64,000 bases of DNA from Halalkalicoccus subterraneus (GTDB taxonomy: Archaea > Halobacteriota > Halobacteria > Halobacteriales > Halalkalicoccaceae), in contig NZ_RDQG01000022.1 of the NCBI RefSeq assembly GCF_003697815.1, forward strand, positions 1 through 64,000, given 5' to 3'. Below are positions 22,121 to 44,278 of the stretch, piece by piece; within the stretch, counting starts at the first letter, position 1; each line of letters begins with the position of its first letter. The translations under genes and the position numbers were made by a program. The notes beneath the pieces were generated by a model, which was given only the letters and a program-made list of their open reading frames with translations, was not told the origin of the DNA and made no database searches.

Positions 22121-24064
22121 TCAGTCGTCGGCGGGGGCCGGCGAGTCGCCCGTCGAGACGCCCGTACCGGGGCCGACGTCGATACCCAGGTCGTCGAGCT
22201 TCTCGTCGGGGACGACGCCGTCGACCCAGCCGCGGTGCTCGTAGTACTCCTCCTTCATCTCCTCGAGTTCGCAGTACTCGCCCTCGGAGGCTCCCTGACC
22301 GGGGTTGCCGCCCTCCTCGAGGAAGCGCTCGGGCAGCGAGTCGTCCGCGCCGTCGAAGCCGACGAGGTTGTTGTAGTAGCGTTCGAGGTTGTAGACGCGC
22401 TCGCCGGACTCCATGAGCTCGTCCTCGCTGACATCGAGGCCGGTCATGCCGTTGTACTGGAGCACGTACTCCTCGATGCCCTCCGCGAAGGCGTTGAACT
22501 TGCAGATGTCGAAGCTGTCCGAGATCGCGTGCAGGTCCTGGAAGGTCGCGGTGAGCTCGCCCTTGCCCTCGTACTCGTAGGGATCGACCTTCTCGGGGAT
22601 CCCGAGGATCTCGGCGGCAGGCGTGTACCCGCGGAGGTGACACGCGCCGCGGTTCGAGGTGGCGTACGCGATACCCATCCCCTTCATGCAGCGGGGGTCG
22701 TAGGCGGCGATCGACTGGCCCTTGACCGAGAGCTTACTGTCGTGCCCGTCGACGGCGTCGGCGACGCCCTCCTGGCCCTCCGCCAGCAGGTCCGCGAGGT
22801 CGTCCTCGCGGTTCGCGACCTTGGTGATCATCTCGATCATCTCCTCCTCGTCGCCCCAGTCGATGCCGTCGCCGTCGCCGATACCCTCGAGCTTGCCGCG
22901 CTCGGTCAGCTCCATCGCCATGGCCATGATGTTGCCGACTTCGATGGTGTCGATGCCGACGTCGTTACACCGGTCGATCATCACGGCGATCTTGTCGCGG
23001 TCGTCGTTCGCGGAGTTCGTCCCGAGCGCCCACGCCGACTCGTACTCGAAGGACTCCATGCGGACGTTCATCTCCTCGCCCTTGTGCATGGTCTGGACCT
23101 CGACCTCTTTCTTACAGGCGACCGGACACGAGTGACAGGTCGGCTCGTCGACGAGGATGTTCTCGCGGACGTTCTCGCCGCTGATCTTCTCGGCGTCGAG
23201 ATCGTGCGGGCGGTCCTCCTCGTGTTCGTTATACGAGACGCCCGAGGTGTACTCTCCGTTTTTGGTGGGGTGGCCGTCCATCTCCTCGGTGAGGTTCATC
23301 AGGACGTTCGTCCCGTACATCGAGAGGCCGCCCTCGTTCGGGGCCGTAACGTCGGACTCCTGGATGAGCTGCATCGCCTGCTGGTGGCCCTCCATGAACG
23401 TCTCCTGGTCGGCCGGTTTGGGCATTTTCGTGCCCGACTTGATGACGATGGCTTTCAGGTTCTTGTTGCCCATCACGCAGCCGGTACCGCCCCGGCCCGA
23501 GGCGCGGTCGTCCTCGTTCATGATGCAGGCGTACTTGACGCCGTTCTCGCCGCCCTGCCCGATGCCCATGAAGGACATGTTCTTCCCGTAGGCGCCCTCG
23601 TGTTTCTCCTCTAAGATCTCGCGGGTCTCGTGGACTCCCTTGCCCCAGAGGTCCGAGGCGTCCTCAAGCTCTATCTCGCCGTCCTCGACGACGGCGTAGA
23701 CGGGTTCGTCCGAACTCCCCTCGAACACCATGCCGTCGAAGCCCGACCACTTGAGCCGCGCACCCGACCACCCGCCGTGGTGGCTGTCGGTGACGGTACC
23801 GGTAAGGGGTGATTTCGTACAGACCGCGATCCGCCCGCTCATCACCGTCTGGGTGCCGGTTAAGGGGCCGTTCATGAACGCGAGCAGGTTCTCGTCGCTC
23901 ATCGGGTCGACGTCGGGCCCGTTGTCGAAGACGTACTTCACGCCCAGTCCGCGCGCGCCGATGTACTTCTTCGCGTCCTCGTCGTCGATACTCTCGTAGT
24001 TGACGTCGCCGGAGGAGAGGTCCACCCGTGCGACGTGGTCTTGGAATCCGCCTAAGTCTGTCAT
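22121..24064 (-). CDS. Tungsten-containing aldehyde ferredoxin oxidoreductase
   Basis: At 647 residues this is a full-length AOR-family enzyme. Three cluster cysteines lie at C310, C313 and C317 (CHSCPVAC), and the fourth is C521 in DICKF. Tungstopterin-contact segments RASGRGGTGCVMGNKN and GACHLRGYTP are present, and E341 or a neighbour lies in the MESFEYES region. Such enzymes oxidise aldehydes to acids with ferredoxin as acceptor. A 2Fe-2S ferredoxin gene 1.2 kb away is a possible partner. A paralogue lies at 33769-35409. The substrate is unknown. Confidence 0.94.
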   Translation of the reverse strand: MTDLGGFQDHVARVDLSSGDVNYESIDDEDAKKYIGARGLGVKYVFDNGPDVDPMSDENLLAFMNGPLTGTQTVMSGRIAVCTKSPLTGTVTDSHHGGWSGARLKWSGFDGMVFEGSSDEPVYAVVEDGEIELEDASDLWGKGVHETREILEEKHEGAYGKNMSFMGIGQGGENGVKYACIMNEDDRASGRGGTGCVMGNKNLKAIVIKSGTKMPKPADQETFMEGHQQAMQLIQESDVTAPNEGGLSMYGTNVLMNLTEEMDGHPTKNGEYTSGVSYNEHEEDRPHDLDAEKISGENVRENILVDEPTCHSCPVACKKEVEVQTMHKGEEMNVRMESFEYESAWALGTNSANDDRDKIAVMIDRCNDVGIDTIEVGNIMAMAMELTERGKLEGIGDGDGIDWGDEEEMIEMITKVANREDDLADLLAEGQEGVADAVDGHDSKLSVKGQSIAAYDPRCMKGMGIAYATSNRGACHLRGYTPAAEILGIPEKVDPYEYEGKGELTATFQDLHAISDSFDICKFNAFAEGIEEYVLQYNGMTGLDVSEDELMESGERVYNLERYYNNLVGFDGADDSLPERFLEEGGNPGQGASEGEYCELEEMKEEYYEHRGWVDGVVPDEKLDDLGIDVGPGTGVSTGDSPAPADD

Positions 24065-26269: not shown

Positions 26270-26587
26270 TCAGTCCTGTGCAGGGGCGTCCTGGCGCTCG
26301 GTCGCCTGCAGGATGAACGTCCGTTCGGGGGGCGGGGCGATCCGGAGTTCGATCTTCCGGATGAGTCGGTAGTACTTGCGATTTCCCCGTCGGTAGTGTT
26401 CGACGATTCCGCTCTCCTCGAGCGTCGAGAGGTGGTGGGCTGCCGTCTTCCCGTCCATCCCGACGGCCTCCGTGAGTTCGGAGACGTATCGTGGCCCGTG
26501 GGAGAGTTCGCGGATGATCCTCAACCGCGGCGTGCTCCCCAGCACGTCGATCAGTGACACGCCTCCTCGTTTGTGAGGTTTCATCAT
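26270..26587 (-). CDS. ArsR-family winged-helix regulator
   Basis: The 105-residue protein is a single winged helix: LIDVLGSTPRLRIIRELS, then RYVSELTEAVGMDGKTAAHHL as recognition helix, STLEESGIVEHYRRGN as wing turn, and KYYRLIRKIELRI. No metal-binding cysteines are visible, so metal sensing in the classic way is unlikely. It is divergent from the amphi-Trp gene and may control it or the coiled-coil gene behind it. Confidence 0.88.
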   Translation of the reverse strand: MMKPHKRGGVSLIDVLGSTPRLRIIRELSHGPRYVSELTEAVGMDGKTAAHHLSTLEESGIVEHYRRGNRKYYRLIRKIELRIAPPPERTFILQATERQDAPAQD

Positions 26588-28647: not shown

Positions 28648-30354
28648 TTACTCCTCCATCGAGAAGACGAGCAGCCTGTCGTCGCGCTTGCCCCGTCGGA
28701 GCCAGCCGCTGCCGCCGACCTGGATCGCGACGTACTGCTTTTCGGTGCCCGGATCGTACCAGCTGATCGGGTCGCCCGAGATCGGGGTCTCGCCGGCGTC
28801 GTACTCCCAGAGGCGCTCGCCGGACTCGCCGTCGTAGCCGACCATCTCGCCGTTCTGGTTGCCCGCGAACATCAGGCCGGTCTTGGTCGACATCGTGCCG
28901 CCCCAGAGGTAGACGTCGCTGTCGATCCAGTCCTGCCAGACGATCTCGCCCGTCAGCGGTTTCACCGCCGAGATCACGCCGATGTGGCCGTTGTAGCCGT
29001 CCGGGTGTGACTCGATCTCGTCCTCGAGGATGCCGCCCCAGTACTTCTTTCCGGCCTCGAACTCCTCGAAGCGCCACCACGCTTCTTGGGGCGAGTTGTG
29101 GAGCTTGTGATAGGAGATTCCCAGTTCGGGGTTGTAGGTGCCGGGCTGCCAGTCGTTGCCGCCCATCCCGCCGGGCATGAACGGCATCCGGCGTCCCTCG
29201 TCGATGTGCGGGATCATCCGGAACATGTTGAGCTGCTGGCACAGCGGCTCGCTCCGGACGAGCAGCTCGCCGGTCTCGGCGTCCGTCGTGTAGAGCCAGC
29301 CGGTCTTCCCCACCGAAACGGTGACGTCGCGTTCCTTTCCTCGTACTTCGACGTCCCGAATGACGATGCGGGGCATCGCCGAGTCGTAGTCCCAGACGTC
29401 GTGGGCCGATTCCTGGTGGAACCACTCGTGCTCGCCCGTTTCGAGGTCGAGACAGAGCGTCCCGATGCTGTTGCGGTTGGGGCCCGGCCGGACCGAGCCG
29501 TCGAAGTCCGGTCCGGGGTTGCCCATCGGCAAGTAGAGCTTGCCGCGTTCCTCGTCGACGGTCGCACCCATCCAGTTGGTGGTGGCCGACTGGTTGATGC
29601 TGTCGCCGACCCACTCGGTCTCGGGCGAGAGCAGCGTCGACCACTTCTCGTCGCCGGTCCCGGTGTCGATGGCAGTGTGGAAGCCACGTACCCCGTACTC
29701 GCCGCCGGCGCTGCCCGTAAAGAGGGTGCCCTCGTAGACCTGTGGGGCCCACGTCGCCGAATATCCGCGTTCGTGGTCGGCGGTGCTGTGATACCACTGC
29801 TCCTCGCCGGAGTAGCGATCCAGCGCGACGACGCCCGAGTCGAGGGTGGTCATGAAGACCTTGTCCTCGTAGACGGCGGGCCCGCGGTTGTTGTCGTCAC
29901 AACACAGTACCACGTCGTTTGGCACCGCGTAGGTGTAACTCCAGAGGACGTCGCCCTCGCGCGGGTCGATCGCCTTGATGTGGTTGGGCCCGTTCGACTG
30001 GTACATGATCGGCGGATCGCCCGGCACGATCAGGGGAGTGCCCTCCATGCTCGAACCCGATCCGACCGACAGCTCGTATTCGAGTTCGAGCTCCCCGACG
30101 TTCTCGGGAGTGATGATCTCACACGTCGTGTAACGGTGCTGTTCGTAGTTCCCGCCGTAGACGAGCCACGCTTCGGGGTTCTCCCCGCTCCCGCTGAGCA
30201 TCTCCTGCGTGACGTCCTTTTCGGGAATGCGGTCGATATCGTGTTGATGTGTGACGGATTTCTCCGGTGCACCAAGCACCCGATAGCCGTTGTCCGTCTC
30301 CCGTACGACTGTATCCTGTGCGGCCTTGACGGCCCTGTCTTCGTCTATTGACAT
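28648..30354 (-). CDS. PQQ-dependent (quinoprotein) dehydrogenase
   Basis: The 568-residue beta-propeller has the quinoprotein marks: vicinal disulfide C151-C152 in VVLCCDDNNRG, E104 in SMEGTPLIV, N279 in PMGNPGPDF, and catalytic-base candidate D322 in HDVWDYD. W-motif repeats such as GDVLWSY, GEEQWYH and GEHEWFH are present. It should oxidise an alcohol or sugar with PQQ. D324, two residues after the base, is the position that binds lanthanides in XoxF-type enzymes, but it also occurs in Ca-dependent glucose dehydrogenases. There is no signal peptide. PQQ synthesis genes are not in the window. Confidence 0.92.
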   Translation of the reverse strand: MSIDEDRAVKAAQDTVVRETDNGYRVLGAPEKSVTHQHDIDRIPEKDVTQEMLSGSGENPEAWLVYGGNYEQHRYTTCEIITPENVGELELEYELSVGSGSSMEGTPLIVPGDPPIMYQSNGPNHIKAIDPREGDVLWSYTYAVPNDVVLCCDDNNRGPAVYEDKVFMTTLDSGVVALDRYSGEEQWYHSTADHERGYSATWAPQVYEGTLFTGSAGGEYGVRGFHTAIDTGTGDEKWSTLLSPETEWVGDSINQSATTNWMGATVDEERGKLYLPMGNPGPDFDGSVRPGPNRNSIGTLCLDLETGEHEWFHQESAHDVWDYDSAMPRIVIRDVEVRGKERDVTVSVGKTGWLYTTDAETGELLVRSEPLCQQLNMFRMIPHIDEGRRMPFMPGGMGGNDWQPGTYNPELGISYHKLHNSPQEAWWRFEEFEAGKKYWGGILEDEIESHPDGYNGHIGVISAVKPLTGEIVWQDWIDSDVYLWGGTMSTKTGLMFAGNQNGEMVGYDGESGERLWEYDAGETPISGDPISWYDPGTEKQYVAIQVGGSGWLRRGKRDDRLLVFSMEE

Positions 30355-30368
30355 TGGTATGTGTTGTG

Positions 30369-31277
30369 TTATCGCAGTGTACTCGGTTTTCGCATCTCCT
30401 CAGTGATCCAGAACATGTCCTTGACGATCTCCTCCTGGTTGGTGATCATGATCGCGGTGCTCGCCGAGAGCGCCGCGGCCAGTTGGGAGTCGCTCAATGA
30501 CCCGCCCTCGGCGATCTCGTGGGCGGCCGTCGCCATGACGTACAGGCCACCGAGCATCGCTTTGACGTCCCAGTAGCCGTCGTCGAGGATCTCGTCGGTG
30601 ATGAGGAACTTCTTCTGCCAGAGATGGATGTCGAGGTTCTTGACCCAGAGCAGCGACCCGCCCATCGCGCGCTGCTGAAGCGGCGGGACGTCCTCGACGT
30701 TGAACTCCACCTCGTCGGGGATGTCCTTCGTGGGCGTCCACCGCGCGAGGCGATCGTTGTTGTTGACGACGTTCATCACCAGAACGGTCTGTTCGCGCTC
30801 GTCGAACCCGCACTCCTCGAGCGCGGCGGCGAGCGGCTCGGCCTGGATCAGCTCGTTGGCCGTTCCCTCGATGTGTTCGGGCGTAAAGCGCGGGAGGTTC
30901 GCCTCGACGCTGTCGAAAAAGCCCGTCTCGACCAGGTGATCGTAGATCGCCCAGCCGGGCTCGACGAGTTCGCGGTACAGCGCCTCCGGTTCGGTCTCCC
31001 CCCCGGGAATCCCCGCCTCGCGGACCTCCGAGAGGCGGTTGATCTGTGTCGACAGCTCCGCGAGCGCGTGCTCGAGGAGCTCGTTGTCGAGTTTACCCGT
31101 GAGGTCGTCCCGGATCGCCTCGCCCATCGAAGCGAACTCCGGGTCGGCGGTTACATCGATCGTCCCGCGTAGTTCCTCTATCGTCAACTCCTCGTTCGAT
31201 TCGCGACTGATTCCAAGATTCCTCGCTAACGCCTCTTGGTCCGCGACCGATACTTGAGGCCTGTTTACGTTTGCCAT
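30369..31277 (-). CDS. Unrecognised 302-residue protein paired with the quinoprotein
   Basis: I do not recognise this family. The protein is mostly helical and acidic, has no membrane segment or signal peptide and contains only one cysteine. Notable stretches are RFTPEHIEGTANELIQ, VLVMNVVNNNDRLARW, a basic-aromatic KNLDIHLWQKKFLITDE and MATAAHEIAEGG. It lies 14 bases upstream of the quinoprotein gene on the same strand, so they form an operon. A chaperone, cofactor-loading or electron-transfer adaptor role is possible, but this is inference. The start MANVNRP at 31277 is preferred over 31325. Confidence 0.8.
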   Translation of the reverse strand: MANVNRPQVSVADQEALARNLGISRESNEELTIEELRGTIDVTADPEFASMGEAIRDDLTGKLDNELLEHALAELSTQINRLSEVREAGIPGGETEPEALYRELVEPGWAIYDHLVETGFFDSVEANLPRFTPEHIEGTANELIQAEPLAAALEECGFDEREQTVLVMNVVNNNDRLARWTPTKDIPDEVEFNVEDVPPLQQRAMGGSLLWVKNLDIHLWQKKFLITDEILDDGYWDVKAMLGGLYVMATAAHEIAEGGSLSDSQLAAALSASTAIMITNQEEIVKDMFWITEEMRKPSTLR

Positions 31278-31340
31278 GGACCATCCGAGCCTTAGCAGGG
31301 ATCCTTCATAGTTCTTGGTGTACATTCTTCGTGAACATCA

Positions 31341-33768: not shown

Positions 33769-35409
33769 ATGCGAAGCGCCACGGGTCCCCTGCTGTCGAT
33801 CGACCTCGACGAGCAAACCGCCGAGACGGAGTCGATCGATGACGTTCTCGACGCCTTCGTCGGCGGACGGGGCGTCGGGACGAAACTCGCCTACGACAGA
33901 GTACCGTTCGACGCCGATCCTCTCGGGTCCGAGAACCGTCTCACGTTCGCGGCCGGGCCGCTCCAGACCGCACGGACGAGCTTCACGGGACGGATGAACT
34001 GCACCGGTCTCTCGCCGCTTACCGATGGGATACTCTCCTCGAACGCGGGTGGTTTCCTCTCGCGGAACGCCGTCGCGACGGGCTACAGCGCCGTCGAGAT
34101 CGCGGGGGAAAGCGACGAGCTCCTGATCGTTCACGTCTCCGATACCGGCGTCGGGTTCGAACCCGTCCCCGAACTCGCGGGCGCGGCCGTCTCGGCGGTG
34201 AGCGAACACGTCGTTGGACGGGGCCTCGACGCCTCACACGTCGCCTGCATCGGTCCCGCCGGCGAGAATTTAGTGAGGTTCGCCTCGATCATGACCAGCG
34301 AAAGTCGGACCTTCGGCCGCGGCGGGCTCGGCGCGGTGCTGGGATCGAAGAACGTGAAAGCGATCACCTTCTCGGGCGACTCGGCACCCGAAACCGAGTT
34401 CCCCGCGGTCGCAAGCGATATCCACCGCGATGCCGCCGAGAGCGACCACGTGATGAAGCGCCAGGGTACCGCGAGCCTGACCGAATTCGCGAGCCAGGTC
34501 GGGGCACTGCCCACGCACTACTACTCGGAACTGGAGTTCGAGGGAAGCGACGGAATCTCCGGCGACCGGGTCGAGGAGAAGAAGTTCAGGAAGGGGACCT
34601 GCTCTGCGTGTGCCTTCGCCTGCAAACTCCCGACGCGCGACGAGGCAAGTGGGTTAGAAACCGAAGGACCGGAGTTCGAGACGGTGATGGCCTTCGGCTC
34701 GAACTGCGGGATCGATGAGATCACCTCGGTGATGAAATCGAACGACCTGTGCGACGAACTCGGCATGGACACCATCTCGTGTGGCGCGACGGTCGCGGCG
34801 TACCTCGAAAGCGAGGACGCCTTCGGCGACGCCGAACTGGTCCACGCCCTCGTCGAGAAAATCGCCCGCAGGGAAGGCATGGGCGACGTTCTCGCCGAGG
34901 GGATCGACCGAATCCACGACGAGCTGGGCGTCGAGAACTGGAGTTCGAAGGGGATGCCCTTCGCCGCCCACGACGGCCGGGCCCTCAACGGGCAAGGGCT
35001 GGCCTTCGCCACGTCGAACCGGGGTGCCGACCATCTCTACGGGGGGCTCTACACCTACGAATACCCGCTGGTCGAGAAGAGCGAGGCGCTCGACCCCGAG
35101 GGGATGGCGGGCAAACCCGAGAAATTGGTCGCATCCGAGAACCACAACGCGCTGCTTGACAGTGCCATCTGCTGTAAGTTCTCGCGGACCGTCCTGACCG
35201 ACAAGCGCCTCGCGACCCTGCTCGACGCCGAGTACGAACGGCTGCTGGAAACGGGCGCGCGCATCGTCGCCCTCGAACGACGGTTCAACAACGAACGCGG
35301 GTTCGACCGGAGCGACGACGACCTCCCCTACGAGCTTCCGGGATTCGAGGACGCACTCGACGAGTACTATCGGCTTCGCGACTGGAACCCGGACGGTACC
35401 GTCCCGTAG
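33769..35409 (+). CDS. AOR-family tungsten oxidoreductase, shorter paralogue
   Basis: The 546-residue protein has the cluster cysteines C278, C281 and C285 (CSACAFAC), and a fourth in ICCKF (C468 or C469). It also has TFGRGGLGAVLGSKN and FATSNRGADHLYGGL for pterin contacts. It is about 100 residues shorter than the AOR at 22121-24064, mainly in the middle and C-terminal part. The N-terminus has FVGGRGVGTKLAYD. The substrate is unknown. It sits beside a cupin gene and a three-gene operon of binding-protein-like genes. Confidence 0.92.
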   Translation: MRSATGPLLSIDLDEQTAETESIDDVLDAFVGGRGVGTKLAYDRVPFDADPLGSENRLTFAAGPLQTARTSFTGRMNCTGLSPLTDGILSSNAGGFLSRNAVATGYSAVEIAGESDELLIVHVSDTGVGFEPVPELAGAAVSAVSEHVVGRGLDASHVACIGPAGENLVRFASIMTSESRTFGRGGLGAVLGSKNVKAITFSGDSAPETEFPAVASDIHRDAAESDHVMKRQGTASLTEFASQVGALPTHYYSELEFEGSDGISGDRVEEKKFRKGTCSACAFACKLPTRDEASGLETEGPEFETVMAFGSNCGIDEITSVMKSNDLCDELGMDTISCGATVAAYLESEDAFGDAELVHALVEKIARREGMGDVLAEGIDRIHDELGVENWSSKGMPFAAHDGRALNGQGLAFATSNRGADHLYGGLYTYEYPLVEKSEALDPEGMAGKPEKLVASENHNALLDSAICCKFSRTVLTDKRLATLLDAEYERLLETGARIVALERRFNNERGFDRSDDDLPYELPGFEDALDEYYRLRDWNPDGTVP

Positions 35410-35412
35410 CCC

Positions 35413-35781
35413 CTATCGAGAGGTGTTCGCCTCCGCCGTCCGCGAGTCGCCCCAGGCCGGCTTTCCCCGCGGCGGGGCGAGGATTCCGACGCCGACGGCG
35501 GGCTCCTCGCCCCTGTTCTCCGCACCGTGGTGCTCGTGGCTCGAAAAGCGATAGGAGTCTCCCGGCTCCAAGAGCACCTCCTCGCCCTCGACGACGGCCA
35601 CCAGCCGTCCGCTGATCATATAGCCGATCTGTTCGTTGTCGTGGCGGTGGGCCGGGAGCGTCGCACCGGGTTCGACGCGCCAGTACTTCATCCCCGCGCG
35701 CTCGCCCGTCGCGAGGTCACCCAAAAACACGCCCTCGGCGACCTCCTCCGTGCCCGCTCCCTCGGTACTGATGCGTTCCAT
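35413..35781 (-). CDS. Cupin domain protein
   Basis: The 122-residue single-domain cupin has the first motif region PGATLPAHRHDNEQIGYMISG with two His and a Glu, and a second motif ending PGDSYRFSSHEHHGAENRG. The His/Glu set could bind one metal ion. Such proteins serve as sensors, isomerases or dioxygenases. It is divergent from the binding-protein operon and convergent with the AOR gene, leaving 3 bases between stops. Confidence 0.9.
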   Translation of the reverse strand: MERISTEGAGTEEVAEGVFLGDLATGERAGMKYWRVEPGATLPAHRHDNEQIGYMISGRLVAVVEGEEVLLEPGDSYRFSSHEHHGAENRGEEPAVGVGILAPPRGKPAWGDSRTAEANTSR

Positions 35782-35815
35782 GATACGAGTTCTCCTGAGT
35801 CGTGGGCCGAGTTCC

Positions 35816-35843
35816 TAATAAACATTCTGGAGGAATTTTTAAG
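35816..35843. promoter_or_regulatory. Back-to-back promoters of the cupin gene and the binding-protein operon
   Basis: Minus-strand TTTATTA (35816-35822) lies 35-41 bases ahead of the cupin start. Plus-strand TTTTTAAG (35836-35843) lies about 31 bases ahead of ATG 35871. The two boxes are only 13 bases apart, so one bound regulator could control both directions. Confidence 0.5.
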
Positions 35844-35870
35844 TGCGAAACCCACCATCGGTCTAGAGAC

Positions 35871-36761
35871 ATGGCAACTGGTGACAGGGTACGGCTGTTC
35901 CACCTCCCGTTTTCGTTCATGCTGCCCCAGCGGGTGGCCCACGAGCGGGGGTACTTCGAGGAGGCGGGGCTAGCGGTAGAGCTGATCGAGCGCGACCGGG
36001 AGTCGGTCGACGTGAAATACATCCCGAGCGAGTCGAGCCTGACGGAGGATCACGGGATCGACCTCTACCCGATCTGCAAGTGGGAATCGATCAAACGCAC
36101 CTGGGAGATGGGTGACGGACGGATCGTCGCGAAGGGCACGTTTGCCGACCTCCCCTACACCGTCTTCGTCCGGCCCGATTCCGACGTCACGGGGCCGAAG
36201 GACCTGGCGGGCGTCCCGGTTGCGGTCAACCGCCGAACCGGTCAGGAGTACACCGCGATGAGGGCCTTAGAGGAGCACATGGCACCCGAGGACGTGATCC
36301 TGAAGGGCTTCGGGATGCCGACCGAGCGCCTGCGCGCGCTCCGGGACGGCGAGGTCGAGGCCGCGATCCTACTCGACCCCCAGAGTACGCTTGCGGAACA
36401 CATGGGTTTTCGGGAAGTCCTCTCGTTCGACAACCACATGGGGATCGTCGGCGGCGAGGGTATCGATAGCGAGGTCCTCGACGCCTTCATGGCCGCCTAC
36501 GACCGGGCGGCCATGGAGATCAACGCGAACCCCGAGGTGTTCAGGGAAGACTACCTCGACATGCTCGAGAAGGACTCGCGGGTCGCACCGGGTCTCTTCG
36601 AGGACATCGACATGGGCGCGGTGCGCGCGGACCTCTCGGTGCCGCGCTACGAGGTGCCCGAACCTGCCGACCGGGCGGAGCTGGACGAACACTTGGAGTG
36701 GATGAAGGAGCGGGAACTGGTCGAGGAGAGCGCCGACATCGACCGGATCGTCGCCAATTAA
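35871..36761 (+). CDS. NMT1/THI5-like binding-protein-fold protein, first of three
   Basis: The 296-residue protein starts MATGDRVRLFHLPFSFMLPQ and has the type-II periplasmic-binding-protein pattern: VAHERGYFEEAGLAVELIE, the hinge GPKDLAGVPVAVN, and LRDGEVEAAILLDPQ. There is no signal peptide or lipobox, and no permease or ATPase gene nearby. It lacks the CCCFC motif of yeast Thi5. Cytosolic proteins of this fold include MqnA and MqnD and 4,5-dihydroxyphthalate decarboxylase, so an enzymatic role is possible. It is one base from the next gene. Confidence 0.85.
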   Translation: MATGDRVRLFHLPFSFMLPQRVAHERGYFEEAGLAVELIERDRESVDVKYIPSESSLTEDHGIDLYPICKWESIKRTWEMGDGRIVAKGTFADLPYTVFVRPDSDVTGPKDLAGVPVAVNRRTGQEYTAMRALEEHMAPEDVILKGFGMPTERLRALRDGEVEAAILLDPQSTLAEHMGFREVLSFDNHMGIVGGEGIDSEVLDAFMAAYDRAAMEINANPEVFREDYLDMLEKDSRVAPGLFEDIDMGAVRADLSVPRYEVPEPADRAELDEHLEWMKERELVEESADIDRIVAN

Positions 36762-36762
36762 C

Positions 36763-37752
36763 ATGGACGTCGAAACCCAACAGGCGGCGCTCGACGCCCT
36801 CCACGACGATCCGGGCGACTTGCCGGTGTTCCGGGCGCGCTTCGAGCACAACGGCAGCCCGCGGTACATGCTCTATACGATCAAGAAGTTCGGCTTCGAC
36901 CACGACCACGGCTTCCACCTCGACGTGCAACTGGTCTCGGACGAGTTGGAGGGCGGCGTCGAAACCGTCGAGGCGAAACTCCAAGATGGCGACGCCGACC
37001 TGATCGACATCGACTACATCTCGACTGCGCGCGAGCGCGCGGAGGGCGCGCCCATCGTCGCTTTCCACCCTTACGGCCGCACGGTCGGTGGGCTCGTCGT
37101 TCCCGAGGACAGCCCGATAGAAGGGTTGGAAGACCTGCGCGGAAAGCGCCTCGGGGTCGTCCGCCGGCTCGACAAGAACTGGATCCTCACGCGGGCGGCT
37201 TGTCGGGAGTTCCATGACTTTGACCCCGACGAGGAGGCGACGCCCGTCGAGGCGGGCTCGAAGGTCGGGCTCACCGAGATGCTTCAGGAGGGGGAAGTCG
37301 ATGGGATCTTTCAATTCTGGCCGATCGTCCCCGAGATAACGGAGACGGGTCCCTATCGCGAGGCGTTTCCCGTTTCGGACCTCGTTCAGCGCCTCTCGGG
37401 CACCGAGAACAAGCTCCCCATCTCGACGTTCCTCACGAGCGAGGAGTACTTCGAGGGGAACCCGCAGGCGATCCGGGGGTTCAAACGCGCCTACGGCGAG
37501 GCGGTCGACCAGCTGAGAAGCGACGACGAGCTCTGGGAGACCATCGGCGACGAACTGATGTACGAGAACGACCCCGCGGTGATCCGTGCCGTGCGGGACG
37601 GCTGGCGCGACATGGTCGTCGCCGACTGGGACGAGGAAACAGTGGAAGGAATGGGCCGACTGTTCGATCATCTCCTGGAAGTGGCGGGCGAGGAGGCCAT
37701 CGGCGTCGACCACCTTCCGGAGGGATTGTTCCGGCTGGAGGCCCCCGAATGA
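36763..37752 (+). CDS. NMT1/THI5-like binding-protein-fold protein, second of three
   Basis: This 329-residue protein has the same fold pattern: VETVEAKLQDGDADLIDIDYI, EGLEDLRGKRLGVVRRLDK, LTEMLQEGEVDGIFQFWP. Its N-terminus, MDVETQQAALDALHDDP, is hydrophilic and not a signal peptide. It starts one base after the first paralogue and overlaps the third by ATGA. The three proteins are only distantly related to each other, which suggests different ligands or subunits rather than recent duplication. Confidence 0.83.
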   Translation: MDVETQQAALDALHDDPGDLPVFRARFEHNGSPRYMLYTIKKFGFDHDHGFHLDVQLVSDELEGGVETVEAKLQDGDADLIDIDYISTARERAEGAPIVAFHPYGRTVGGLVVPEDSPIEGLEDLRGKRLGVVRRLDKNWILTRAACREFHDFDPDEEATPVEAGSKVGLTEMLQEGEVDGIFQFWPIVPEITETGPYREAFPVSDLVQRLSGTENKLPISTFLTSEEYFEGNPQAIRGFKRAYGEAVDQLRSDDELWETIGDELMYENDPAVIRAVRDGWRDMVVADWDEETVEGMGRLFDHLLEVAGEEAIGVDHLPEGLFRLEAPE

Positions 37753-38714
37753 GTTCCATTAGTTTCCAGCTCAACTGGGAGCCGAACGGTTTCCAGGCGC
37801 CCTATTTCCTCGCCCGGGAGCAGGGGTTCTACGAGGAGGAAGGGCTGGAGGTGGAGTTCGTCGAGGGCCACGGCTCGCCCTTCGCCGCCGAGGAGGCCGC
37901 CCGCGGCCGGGCCGATTTCGCGCTCGCGGGCGCGAGCGCGGTGCTCTCGGTGCAGAGCCAGGGCCACGAGCCGCTGGCGGTCGCCGCCGTCACCCAGAAG
38001 ACGCCCGCAGCAGTCTACACGCTTCGGGACGTCTTCGGCGAACCCTTGGAGGACCCGAAACAGCTCGCGGGCCGGACCGTCGCGCCCTCGGCGACCAAAA
38101 CACGAATCCTCGCCGCCCAGCTCCTCGAAGACGCGGGAATACGGGACGAAGTCAACCTCCTCGATGTGGATCCCCACACCCACCACCGCGTCGAACACCA
38201 GCTGCTCGACGGGTCGGTCGACGCCGCCGTCGGCGTCGTCACCAATGGTGTGGAACTCGAACGCGAACACGACCGAAAAGCCGACGAGCTACCCATCGGC
38301 GATTACCTCCCGATCTACGGGATGACGCTCGTGACGAACCCGGAGTTCGCCGAGTCGAACCCGGAGGTAGTCGAAGGATTCCTGCGCGCGACCGCCCGCG
38401 GATGGGCGGAGGCGACCGCCGACCCTGAGGCGGCGATCGACGCACTGGTCGCGCGAAACGCCACACTCGAACGCGACCGGGAGATCGAGCGGATCAAGTT
38501 CGAGACCGCCGCCGAGGACCTGCAGTTCACCGAGCACGTCCGCAGGGCGGGCTGGGGCAACCACGACGCCGCGCGGTGGGACCGCCTGGGTGAGACGCTC
38601 GCCGAGACGGATCTGCTGGAAGGGGCGGCCGATCCCGATGCAGTGTGGACGAACGAGTACCTCGACAGCGAGGCCCCGTCGATCGCCGAGTACGCAGACC
38701 GGATCGGTCGGTAG
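37749..38714 (+). CDS. NMT1/THI5-like binding-protein-fold protein, third of three
   Basis: The 321-residue protein starts directly with the fold (SSISFQLNWEPNGFQAPYF), then REQGFYEEEGLEVEF, LADF-type RADFALAGASAVL, VYTLRDVFGEPLEDP and LPIYGMTLVTNPEF. No signal peptide precedes it, so it is likely cytosolic. The regulator at 42620-43885 carries the same domain with matching blocks at the same spacing (LNWRPNG, FGEPL, TRIL, FPIYG, GWG). That suggests a common ligand. Confidence 0.87.
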   Translation: MSSISFQLNWEPNGFQAPYFLAREQGFYEEEGLEVEFVEGHGSPFAAEEAARGRADFALAGASAVLSVQSQGHEPLAVAAVTQKTPAAVYTLRDVFGEPLEDPKQLAGRTVAPSATKTRILAAQLLEDAGIRDEVNLLDVDPHTHHRVEHQLLDGSVDAAVGVVTNGVELEREHDRKADELPIGDYLPIYGMTLVTNPEFAESNPEVVEGFLRATARGWAEATADPEAAIDALVARNATLERDREIERIKFETAAEDLQFTEHVRRAGWGNHDAARWDRLGETLAETDLLEGAADPDAVWTNEYLDSEAPSIAEYADRIGR

Positions 38715-38783
38715 CGCCCGTCGAGTCGCGTCGGTTCTCCCGAGGACCCCCACTTATGCCCCGCCGCCGCGTCGGTGCCGAGC

Positions 38784-39797
38784 ATGCCGTTCGGTCTCCC
38801 GACGGAGCTGATCGCGCTCATCGCCTTTCTCGCCGGCGTCGTGCTGGTGATCGCGAGCGTCGAGACGTTCATCGAGGCGGTCGCTGAGAGCGCTCTCTCG
38901 ATCGGTCTCTCGGGGTTCTTTCTCACGGTCGTCCTCGCCGGAACCGATCTCGAGAACGCGATCCTCGGACTGGCGGCCGTCGCGGACGGACTCCCCGACC
39001 TCGCGATGGGCACCGTCTTCGGGGAGGCGCTGTTCGTGCTGGGTGCGGCCGTCGGGCTCGCGGGCGTGCTCACCCCCTTCGAGACCTCGGTGCCGCGGTC
39101 GTACCTCCTGCTCACCCTGCTCGCCCCGTCGCTCCTGTTCGCGCTCGCGCTCGACGGGACGCTCTCGCGGCTCGACGGGGCGATCCTCACGGGCTCGTTT
39201 CTCCCGCTTTTGGGGATCGTCTACGCCCTCGAACGCAATCGAGGGACGCGATACCTCTCGGCCGAGGAGGTCGAGGAGGTCCTCGAAGAGGAATCGAAAG
39301 AGGTGGACGACGAGGACGACCCCATAGAAGGCGACTCGCTTCGAGAGCGCTACGAGGGATGGTATCAGGTCGGGATCGCGCTCGTCGCCACCCTCGGCAT
39401 GACCGTCGGCTCGGAGCTCGCGGTGACGGGCGCGCGCGACCTGCTGTCGGTGTTGGGGATCTCCGGACTGGTCTTCGGCGCGACGGTCATGAGCTTCGTC
39501 GCCTCGCTGGAGGAACTGTTCCTGACCGTCGAGCCCGCCCGGCAGGGTCGTCCGCATCTGGGGGTGGGAAACGTCGTCGGAAGCGTCCTGTTCTTCGTGA
39601 CCGCGAACGCCGGCGTCCTCGCGCTCGTCGGCCCGATAGACACGAGCGGGACGGTCCTCACCGTCCACTGGCCCTTCTTCCTCGTGGCGCTCCTCTCGGT
39701 CGGGTTCGTTTTCCTTCGGGGTCGGGTCGGTCGTCCGGAGGGGTTCGCCCTGTTGGGGCTGTACGCGGCCTACTGGGGCGCGAACTACCTGCTGTGA
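38784..39797 (+). CDS. CaCA-type cation antiporter, first of a convergent pair
   Basis: The 337-residue membrane protein has about ten helices in two halves with an acidic loop between (VEEVLEEESKEVDDEDD). The repeats read VLAGTDLENAILGL and FGATVMSFVASLEELFLTVEPARQG, followed by GVGNVVGSVLF. These align with the alpha repeats of Na/Ca exchangers, but the GTSLPE core is altered to GTDLEN and ASLEEL. The transported ion is uncertain. ATG 38784 is taken; a GTG three codons earlier is possible. Confidence 0.85.
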   Translation: MPFGLPTELIALIAFLAGVVLVIASVETFIEAVAESALSIGLSGFFLTVVLAGTDLENAILGLAAVADGLPDLAMGTVFGEALFVLGAAVGLAGVLTPFETSVPRSYLLLTLLAPSLLFALALDGTLSRLDGAILTGSFLPLLGIVYALERNRGTRYLSAEEVEEVLEEESKEVDDEDDPIEGDSLRERYEGWYQVGIALVATLGMTVGSELAVTGARDLLSVLGISGLVFGATVMSFVASLEELFLTVEPARQGRPHLGVGNVVGSVLFFVTANAGVLALVGPIDTSGTVLTVHWPFFLVALLSVGFVFLRGRVGRPEGFALLGLYAAYWGANYLL

Positions 39798-39798
39798 G

Positions 39799-40992
39799 TC
39801 ACTCGCCGATGGGTACCCCGCCGAAGACGCTCAGCGCGATGACCCAGTAGGCGACGTACAGCCCGAGGAGTAACACGCCGTGCCAGCGTTTCACCTCGCC
39901 GCGGTACATGAAGTACGCCGACAGCGCGGTCACGATGACGATCGCCGGGAGGTGGAAGGTCAGGACCGACGGCGCGATGGTGACCGTGCTGACCAGTGTG
40001 AGCACGCCGATGTTGCCCGTCATCGAGAAGAGCACGCTCCCGATGACGTTGCCGACGCCGATCTCCGGCAGGCCACGGCGAACCGGCTCGATCGTCAGCA
40101 TGACGTCCTCGAAGGTGAGGATCAGCGTCAGGATCGTGGCACCGAAGACGGTCTCCTCGATGCCGAATCCCTCGATGACGACCTCCGAGCCCCCCTCCAA
40201 CAGTATCGCCGCGAAGACGACCCCCACGAGCGCGAAGACGGAGAGACCGATCCAGATCCAGCCGGATCGATTTCCGACCAGCCGGTCCTCGGGGATCTCG
40301 GAAAGCGGTTCGGGAAACGCCGCGCCGCCGTCGGGACGGACCTCCGTGCCGCCGTCCGGCTCGATCGCCGCCCCGAGTTCGGTGCTTCGGAAGACCGGTA
40401 CGTCGCGCCCGCGCTCGCGGACGATGAAGTAGGTGAAGCTCAGGACGAAAAATCCGAGCAACACGAGGCCGGGCACGAGCGTCAGCGTCCCCAGCATGAC
40501 GAAGGGGATCAAAAGCACTGGCGCCAGTGCGAACAGAACGATGTAGTCGTTCGGCAGGTCGACCGGGAACGGCCGGACGATCGCCGCGATCGCGAGCGTG
40601 AGGCCGATGATCGCCAGCCCGGTCCCGAGCGCGGTGCCGAGGGCGGCCCCTTCGAGTCCGCCCGAGGCGAGCACGAGTCCGAGGATCGTGTCGTCGAACT
40701 CGAAGCCGGTGAAGACGATCGCGAGTGCGAACAGTGACATCTTCATCCCGATCGCCGCGCGGGCGAGATAGCTGATCAGCTTCTCGACACAAACCGTCAG
40801 TAGCACTACCCCAAAGGCCAGAACGAGCACGGCACCGAGCAGCCCTTGCCCCTCGATGAACCCCTCGATCGCGCCCTCAATCCCACCCTCCTCACCCTCT
40901 TCGCCTTCCTCTTGGGCCGCCACGGGGACGGCGATCACCGAGGTCGCGAGCAGTACGACGAGCACCAACGTGACGAACCGTCGAGGTGACAT
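39799..40992 (-). CDS. CaCA-type cation antiporter with signal peptide, second of the pair
   Basis: The 397-residue protein starts with a Sec-type signal (SPRRFVTLVLVVLLATSVIAVPVAAQ) and a Glu/Gly-rich acidic stretch. Two helix sets follow with FTGFEFDDTILGLVLA and FGATILTLILTFEDVMLTIEPVRRG, then GVGNVIGSVLF. It is a paralogue of the opposing antiporter gene, whose stop is one base away, and is similarly altered in the ion-binding core. Co-location tail to tail suggests an old duplication with inversion. A TATA element lies just ahead. Confidence 0.84.
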   Translation of the reverse strand: MSPRRFVTLVLVVLLATSVIAVPVAAQEEGEEGEEGGIEGAIEGFIEGQGLLGAVLVLAFGVVLLTVCVEKLISYLARAAIGMKMSLFALAIVFTGFEFDDTILGLVLASGGLEGAALGTALGTGLAIIGLTLAIAAIVRPFPVDLPNDYIVLFALAPVLLIPFVMLGTLTLVPGLVLLGFFVLSFTYFIVRERGRDVPVFRSTELGAAIEPDGGTEVRPDGGAAFPEPLSEIPEDRLVGNRSGWIWIGLSVFALVGVVFAAILLEGGSEVVIEGFGIEETVFGATILTLILTFEDVMLTIEPVRRGLPEIGVGNVIGSVLFSMTGNIGVLTLVSTVTIAPSVLTFHLPAIVIVTALSAYFMYRGEVKRWHGVLLLGLYVAYWVIALSVFGGVPIGE

Positions 40993-42619: not shown

Positions 42620-43885
42620 TCACGCGACGTCGCCCTCTGCAAGCAGACCACCCTGTTCGAGCGCCGTCCGCAGGCGCTCCCACGTTTCGGCGTCCTGTCG
42701 GCCCCAACCGTGTTCCGCGACCGCCTCACTTCCGCCGAACTCGCTGTTGGCTTCCGTAAACGTCCGGACGATCCGGTCGGGTGAACACCCTGCTCGCTCC
42801 GCGATCCCTGCGGCCGCGGCGCTCGACTCGGGGGCCGCCGCCCAGCCGGCGATCGTTCCGGTGAGAAACGCCTCGAGAGCGTCCCCGCGATCGGCGAGCG
42901 TCCCCTCGTGGACGACGAGCGTCGGCCCGTAGATCGGGAAGTGGTCGGCGACCGCGAGCGTATCGACGGTCATTCCTCGTTGCTCCAGTTGGCGGGGATC
43001 GGAAAACGATCCCGTGACGACATCGACCTCGCCTGCGAGCAGGGCGTCCTGCTCCTCGCCGGCCGTATCCACGATCCGAACCGACCCGTCGAGGGTGACC
43101 TGGTTCACGAACAGCCGTCCGAGGATCCGCGTCTCGGAACGTGCGGGCATGCCGATCCGCCGCTCGCGTAGTTGGCCGACGCCGGTCAGGGGCTCGCCGA
43201 ACGTTTCGCGCACGGTGTAGAGGACGGCCATCGCGCGCTGGTAGGCGACCGCGATCGGAACCACCGGCGCGCCGCCCGCCCGCGCCCGACTCACCGTTGC
43301 CGCACCGACCAGCCCCACATCCGCCTCGCGTGCCCGGACGGCTTCGAGCGCCCGGCGGGACCCCTCGTAGTGCTCGAATCGAACGTCGGATCCCGATTCG
43401 CCGTACCGTTCGTCGCGGCGGGCGGCATAAAAGGGCAGGTGCAGCCCGTTCGGCCGCCAGTTCAACCCGAGGACGAGGCCGTCATTCGACTCGTCGGCAG
43501 CTCTACTGCTTCGTGCGACGCCCCATCCCTCGCGCGCTCGCTCCAGCAGTCCCCTCGCTCGCTGTCGATAGACCGTCCGCACCGCGGCGTCGAGATCCGT
43601 AGAGACGTCCCACGCGGTCGGCGGTCGTCCCGGGCCCTCACCGCGGACCGTGGTTCGATCGACCAGATCAGCCGATTCGAGGTGTCCGACCGCCGTCGTC
43701 AGCGCGCCGCGGCTCAGTCCGGTCCCGATTCGGAGCGTGAGCTCCGTCGCCGGCTCTTCCGTGAACTCCGTCCGGAGGTGAAGAAAGGTGAGCACGCGGG
43801 CGGGCTCCTCGCCGAGTCCGAGCGCCAGCCGGCTGATCACCGCCTCGTCGTTCCCGTCGAGCGCTCGGAACTCTCGCGTGCGCAT
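42620..43885 (-). CDS. Helix-turn-helix regulator fused to an NMT1/THI5-like binding domain
   Basis: Residues 14-96 form a winged helix (LTFLHLRTEFTEEPATEL, GLSRGALTTAVGHLESADLVDR). After a helical linker (97-135), residues 137-421 are a binding-protein domain: LGLNWRPNGLHLPFYAARR, READVGLVGAATVS, VRETFGEPLTGVGQL, HFPIYGPTLVV and HGWGRQDAETWERL. Each block matches the third gene of the 35871-38714 operon. This is a one-component regulator that probably binds the same ligand in the cytosol and controls that operon (inference). Confidence 0.88.
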   Translation of the reverse strand: MRTREFRALDGNDEAVISRLALGLGEEPARVLTFLHLRTEFTEEPATELTLRIGTGLSRGALTTAVGHLESADLVDRTTVRGEGPGRPPTAWDVSTDLDAAVRTVYRQRARGLLERAREGWGVARSSRAADESNDGLVLGLNWRPNGLHLPFYAARRDERYGESGSDVRFEHYEGSRRALEAVRAREADVGLVGAATVSRARAGGAPVVPIAVAYQRAMAVLYTVRETFGEPLTGVGQLRERRIGMPARSETRILGRLFVNQVTLDGSVRIVDTAGEEQDALLAGEVDVVTGSFSDPRQLEQRGMTVDTLAVADHFPIYGPTLVVHEGTLADRGDALEAFLTGTIAGWAAAPESSAAAAGIAERAGCSPDRIVRTFTEANSEFGGSEAVAEHGWGRQDAETWERLRTALEQGGLLAEGDVA

Positions 43886-43924: not shown

Positions 43925-44209
43925 CTACTCCCCTTCCAAGGGCGTGCCCCGCCGCGCGATCGTCGTCGCCGGGAGGCCCGCGCGCTCTGCGTGTTCCTCG
44001 ACGGCGTCCTCGCTTTCGGCCTCGTACTGACAGAAGGTCCCGATCACGTCGTCCTCGTCGTTGGTGAGCACCTCCGATTCGTTCCACTGGATGTCCGTTC
44101 CCTCCTCGCGCATCTCCTCGAGGACGCGCCCCGATTCCGACGCGGCGTCGTCGAGGTCGCCCTGACTGATCGGCGCGTCGAGCTCGCGATAGATCTGAAA
44201 CTCTACCAT
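43925..44209 (-). CDS. DUF4242-type small protein
   Basis: The 94-residue protein starts MVEFQIYRELDAPISQGDL and has the family pattern WNESEVLTNDEDDVIGTFCQYEAESEDAVEEHAERAGLPA spread over two beta-alpha units, with one cysteine in TFCQYEA. Related bacterial proteins have been described as nickel-binding. Metal binding here is not shown. It lies 39 bases downstream of the regulator start on the opposite side, so it is transcribed toward that gene's start and may be its operon partner. Confidence 0.78.
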   Translation of the reverse strand: MVEFQIYRELDAPISQGDLDDAASESGRVLEEMREEGTDIQWNESEVLTNDEDDVIGTFCQYEAESEDAVEEHAERAGLPATTIARRGTPLEGE

Positions 44210-44278
44210 ACCCCACACTCTCCGTCATGGTTTGTAAGGGTTTCTCATGTTTAAACGACCGGCATGTCCCGTGGCACG

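Follow-up and report, generated by a model that had tools for sequence, protein, structure and literature searches.

The window examined here, a 64,000-nucleotide stretch of DNA from the haloarchaeon Halalkalicoccus subterraneus, carries on its minus strand a gene (42620..43885, ATG start) for a 421-residue protein, which we call REG and which, from its open reading frame and homology, is a candidate one-component regulator. A SCO4226-like/DUF4242 gene (43925..44218, minus strand), recurrent in the island described below, lies just upstream of it, and a TrkA gene abuts it. On the plus strand is an operon of three putative solute-binding protein genes without signal peptides: SBP1 (35871..36761; NMT1 family, assigned by Pfam and a signal-peptide check, with a probable ATG start), SBP2 (36763..37752; NMT1 family) and the ThiY-like SBP3 (37749..38714). 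An in-frame GTG at 35802 lies upstream of SBP1, and its use as the start would put the candidate operator discussed below inside the gene. A small cupin gene (35413..35781, minus strand), a conserved neighbor, is divergent from SBP1, and an aldehyde ferredoxin oxidoreductase (AOR) gene (33769..35409, plus strand) is a frequent neighbor of the operon. Almost every locus examined shows this divergence of the cupin from SBP1-SBP2-SBP3, and a VOC protein and an AOR are often alongside. Two genes for Na+/Ca2+ exchanger-family proteins (38775..39797, plus strand; 39799..40992, minus strand) follow. Further to the left on the minus strand are a PQQ dehydrogenase-like quinoprotein (28648..30354), a 318-residue protein that is always paired with it (30369..31325), and a small ArsR-type winged helix protein (26270..26557) whose 5′ end is provisional.

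The first-pass annotation had proposed that REG joins a winged helix to a sensor homologous to the product of the third operon gene, citing short blocks shared with SBP3. All five of these blocks are present, in order and in register, and BLASTP aligned residues 137–415 of REG with residues 4–290 of SBP3 at 33% identity (128 bits, E = 2e-38). The shared region had been drawn as residues 137–421; homology does begin at 137, but similarity stops near residue 415, and the C-terminal ‘TNEYL’ segment of SBP3 is missing from REG. The NMT1/ThiY-type solute-binding domain of REG is thus placed at residues 137–415 (42641..43477, minus strand) by BLASTP, Pfam and fold search. Both proteins exceed the gathering cut-off of the Pfam NMT1/THI5 family (PF09084; 20.5 bits), REG with 74.9 bits and SBP3 with 127. 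The similarity is specific and well above that to a generic binding protein. Over all orthologues the REG sensor gave a median of 124 bits with SBP3, compared to 36 with ThiY, 27 with SBP2 and 25 with SBP1, and a secreted relative found in other genomes, SBP3b, is about as close as SBP3 (117 bits).

The N-terminal portion of REG (residues ~11–94; 43604..43855, minus strand) was assigned to a winged helix of the MarR/Lrs14/MreA-like kind, with a conserved GRPP..W wing, on the basis of family profile matches and a structure model. The profile matches are weak singly and consistent together: the NCBIfam MreA model matched 10 of 10 members, Pfam MarR_2 7 of 10, and Lrs14 5 of 10. With the MreA family (NF053756), the cut-off of which is 100 bits, REG of the window scores just 19–20 bits. 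The predicted order is H-H-H-H-E-E, that is four helices and a two-stranded wing, followed by a long linker helix that may serve in dimerization (residues ~96–119; 43529..43600, minus strand) and the binding-protein fold. Since the model was built from three sequences and is of low confidence (pLDDT 58.5), it was used for domain order and fold class only. Its best matches in the PDB were ThiY, a thiamin-bound transporter protein and Thi5; PqqT ranked 34th and a LysR protein 35th. A DNA-binding-type domain and a sensor domain thus lie on one chain, and both the homology and the domain matches support the proposal that REG is a one-component regulator in which a winged helix is joined to a sensor of the NMT1/ThiY type.

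One-component regulators with binding-protein sensors are already known, of the LysR and LacI types. LysR-type regulators resemble REG in combining a helix-turn-helix with a type II periplasmic-binding-protein sensor. REG, in contrast, pairs a MarR/Lrs14-like DNA-binding domain with a ThiY-type binding protein of full length as its sensor; in the fold search, numerous transport proteins ranked above LysR. Assignment of REG to the LysR type was rejected, as the sensor is of the ThiY type and the LysR helix (PF00126) was found neither in REG nor in the ten N-terminal domains scanned. The archaeal winged helix regulators MreA, Lrs14 and Sta1, which the N-terminus of REG resembles weakly but consistently, are modelled as small proteins without a solute-binding domain. 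ThiY and THI5 (NMT1; PDB 3ix1, 4nmy, 4h65) share with REG and SBP3 the sensor fold and an LNW/LDW-x-PN motif, and they are the best matches of both proteins in sequence and fold, but REG has a fused winged helix and no signal peptide. SBP3 itself may be either a binding protein or, like THI5, an enzyme. The cyanobacterial importer components CmpC and NrtC, which were among the fold matches, also use a copy of a binding protein as a regulatory domain. There it is fused to an ATPase and acts on the transporter, whereas in REG it would act on DNA. CmpC and NrtC are a precedent for a regulatory role of a cytosolic copy of an importer’s binding protein. In the open-access literature no publication was found on an HTH-NMT1 regulator or on a PQQ-sensing regulator, and a protein in which a complete ThiY-type domain follows a MarR/Lrs14-like winged helix was not described there either.

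The REG family consists of 34 orthologues in one clade. It is present in 9 of 10 genomes of the window’s family, in 8 of a phylum-wide set of 392 genomes and in 11 of 12 genomes of genus g43, and is intact in 11 of 29 genomes of genus g6 (Natrinema-like). Most annotated plasmid orthologues are named ‘ABC transporter substrate-binding protein’ in RefSeq, a label under which REG has been hidden in the databases. Such a function is contradicted by the absence of a secretion signal or lipobox from all 34 orthologues, compared to 19 of 21 SBP3b proteins that have a twin-arginine lipobox; REG is taken to be cytoplasmic for the same reason.

In many relatives REG lies just before, and often overlaps, ABC ATPase and permease genes on the same strand. 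It overlaps or abuts them in genomes G001, G003, G005, G008, G009 and G278, in genus g43, and on plasmids of Natrinema, Natronococcus and Halomarina. Facing this group are a second permease and the gene for SBP3b, a secreted lipoprotein. Phylogenetic analysis placed the REG sensors in one strongly supported clade, and likewise SBP3, SBP3b and SBP3c (a third importer group) in one each. The order of these clades is not settled by the tree, and the whole radiation stands apart from ThiY. Since the clades are single and well supported, the fusion of winged helix and sensor most likely arose once; since they fall within one radiation, the REG sensor and the importer’s own binding protein share that radiation. 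These comparisons demonstrate, as far as sequence goes, an ancestry of the sensor common to SBP3b and the cytosolic SBP3.

The window genome has lost the REG-linked ABC importer: no such permease or ATPase gene is present in the window, and SBP3b was not found in G000. With its importer gone, REG might here be no more than a decayed or fused relic that regulates nothing, a reading to which the fragmented REG gene of Natrinema sp. SYSU A 869 might also point. We consider it very improbable, as REG of the window is full length, is 64–66% identical to its closest orthologues and has kept the invariant wing motif and sensor residues, and the putative operator has the same sequence as in relatives that still have the importer. 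In the Natrinema strain (G429) both REG and the ATPase gene are split into several pieces (locus L154, 12167–13382).

The interval 35782–35870, which the first-pass annotation had suspected to be a promoter under REG control, indeed contains a conserved dyad. This candidate operator, ATAAACATTCTGGAGGAATTTTTA (35818..35841, plus strand), overlaps the TATA-like region of the SBP1 operon. A consensus, ATAAANNNTYNNNNRGAAYTTTTA, was written from promoters of genera g1 and g43 and then searched in 16 whole genomes. With one exception its zero-mismatch matches lay in the promoters of SBP1, of SBP3b and of a second SBP2 gene (G410). G406 and G410 have two further sites, weaker and unlinked, that precede extra SBP3-like ABC operons. 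The reversed pattern, used as a control, mostly gave 0–1 matches per genome, with 5 in G405. The sole exception, a perfect match in G405 ahead of a gene for an FrsA-like alpha/beta hydrolase (L161, 4904–4927), may mark an additional member of the regulon.

In the window there is one site for the consensus, at 35818–35841 and with 0 mismatches, where 0.01 were expected at up to 3 mismatches; with up to 1 mismatch allowed, the genome has no second copy of the dyad. In the two g43 genomes tested the SBP1 and SBP3b promoters agree at 18–19 of 24 bases, a level never reached in 300 shuffles. In five out-of-sample plasmid loci of 37–41 kb (Halomarina, Halococcus, Natrinema and Natronococcus), the SBP1 and SBP3b promoters were the best or near-best matches. 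In the window’s genus, the SBP3b promoter has no match to the SBP1 element, and direct comparison of the two did no better than shuffles. No operator was found in the promoter of REG itself or in that of the PQQ dehydrogenase. Autoregulation through the same operator was dropped, REG promoters having no site.

The main counter-evidence to control of these promoters by REG is that some genomes lacking REG retain an operator-like element. In genus g6 the SBP1 promoter has a similarly arranged element, ATAAACGTATCATGAAAACGTTTTA, which is kept in genomes with and without REG, the latter at least six in number, and plasmid pHTUR02, without REG, also bears an operator-like element. Another protein may therefore bind there, for example the small ArsR-type winged helix protein of the island, which accompanies REG on 7 of 7 plasmids and in most loci; REG would then control something else, or the importer operon only. 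We regard this as rather unlikely, because the sites precede binding-protein genes homologous to the REG sensor, not neighbors of the small winged helix gene, and REG shares an operon with the importer genes. No operator site was found in G408, the only member of g43 that lacks REG, but its target genes are absent too, and it is thus not independent evidence. With the REG-less elements, the ArsR-type rival and the SBP3b mismatch in the window’s genus taken into account, we put binding of the dyad at 35818–35841 by REG at somewhat over one half.

The ligand has been approached through the neighbors of REG. The best solved relatives of SBP2 are structures of PqqT (E = 1e-28), deposited as ‘PqqT with PQQ bound’ (9b1u), ‘with PQQ and Gd3+’ (9b1v) and a variant (9ooz) (PMC12828617). 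PqqT is a periplasmic protein that binds PQQ with a Kd of 50 nM (PMC12124388). Its motifs LDKNWIL.RA and PY..T.G are kept in SBP2, and PqqT has the same residue at 50 of the 119 positions that are invariant among SBP2 proteins. By relationship and motifs SBP2 is of the PqqT type, and binding of PQQ is predicted for it. REG and SBP1-3 belong to the same superfamily as PqqT. Unlike PqqT, SBP1-3 have no signal peptide, and REG and SBP3 come from another branch of the family.

The distribution of REG also points to PQQ. The PQQ dehydrogenase gene is present in 7 of the 392 genomes, all 7 of which have REG, and in 7 of the 8 genomes with REG (Fisher p = 3e-14; 1.7e-8 counting genera). It is also found on 7 of 7 plasmids with full-length REG matches. 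The protein encoded at 28648–30354 matches the Pfam PQQ family with E = 3e-49 (168.8 bits; cut-off 26.7). It misses the cut-off of the PQQ-dependent alcohol dehydrogenase model TIGR03075 (352 vs. 480 bits) and also matches an ‘empty quinoprotein’ model, and its occupancy by PQQ is a prediction. Its best relatives in the PDB are quinoprotein ethanol dehydrogenases and XoxF. It has the vicinal cysteine pair, and W-D-Y-D at the catalytic loop, where Asp-x-Asp is a hallmark of the lanthanide type. It has no recognizable signal peptide. To our knowledge, the PQQ enzymes of Gram-negative bacteria are periplasmic, and a cytosolic quinoprotein, as suggested by the gene pair at 28648–31325, would be unusual. 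On pSymB of S. meliloti (L186), a homologue of SBP2 and an ABC transporter lie ~5 kb from a PQQ dehydrogenase of the methanol/ethanol family.

PQQ is the leading candidate because of the kinship of SBP2 with PqqT, the co-occurrence of REG with the dehydrogenase and the S. meliloti cluster; the ligand of REG would be an imported heterocycle, probably PQQ. A regulator of the same architecture might instead respond to a precursor of thiamin or to some other heterocycle (HMP/FAMP-like, a deazaflavin or a purine derivative), the PQQ dehydrogenase being a mere neighbor. The nearest solved relatives of REG and SBP3 bind pyrimidines or thiamin, not PQQ, the best matches in sequence and fold being ThiY, the thiamin-bound 4nmy and Thi5, and bacterial relatives of SBP3 adjoin genes for F420 biosynthesis or for ring-amidohydrolases. 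Set against these relationships are the resemblance of SBP2 to PqqT and the near-perfect co-occurrence of REG with the dehydrogenase, and no thiamin gene was found among the island genes scanned. Control by a TPP riboswitch or as a thiamin operon was dropped, since there was no Rfam match, TPP riboswitch included, in the window and four further loci. We judge a ligand other than PQQ to be possible, if rather unlikely. On a plasmid of the alphaproteobacterium Paracoccus alcaliphilus (L187), an SBP3-like ABC importer lies by an F420 biosynthesis cluster and a formate dehydrogenase.

The reading that we prefer, and to which we give an even chance as a whole, is that cytoplasmic REG senses a ligand through a ThiY-type sensor that shares its ancestry with an importer's binding protein, and tunes the promoters bearing the dyad. 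REG would be a one-component transcription factor made of a MarR/Lrs14-like winged helix, a linker helix and a ThiY-type sensor, reading the intracellular level of a compound imported by SBP3b and bound by SBP3. It would bind the dyad as a dimer and alter transcription from the core promoters that the dyad overlaps, those of the SBP1-SBP2-SBP3 operon and of SBP3b and its permease. Repression tuned by the ligand is probably favored over activation; it is the simpler guess because the dyad overlaps a TATA-like, T-rich stretch. Less certainly, the ligand would be PQQ or a PQQ-metal complex and would serve the island's cytosolic PQQ dehydrogenase. In the window genome, with the importer lost, the SBP1-3 operon would be the only recognizable target left.

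In REG, archaea have turned a transporter binding protein into a transcriptional sensor by a route separate from LysR, and its candidate operator and regulon are defined and open to immediate testing. Were PQQ the ligand, the system would reveal PQQ uptake and its regulation in archaea, as well as a cytosolic quinoprotein, and REG may be the first known PQQ-sensing regulator. More tentatively, at something short of an even chance, REG would be the first PQQ-sensing transcription factor; its source would be a binding protein belonging to the first dedicated PQQ importer of archaea, and it would control a mobile island that brings PQQ into the cytosol for a cytosolic, possibly lanthanide-type, quinoprotein dehydrogenase.

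That island comprises REG, the importer, two Na/Ca exchangers, a ferredoxin, the PQQ dehydrogenase, a CDC48 AAA protein, AOR, the cupin and SBP1-3, and it occupies ~25–35 kb on haloarchaeal plasmids (L181, a plasmid of Halomarina sp. BND7, L182, L183, L184 and L185). It looks built for the import, carriage and use of PQQ. Two aldehyde ferredoxin oxidoreductases are found in the neighborhood in the window, at 22121–24064 and 33769–35409. In several relatives the AOR on the operon side is inverted and ~60% identical to that of the window, and may be a swapped paralogue.
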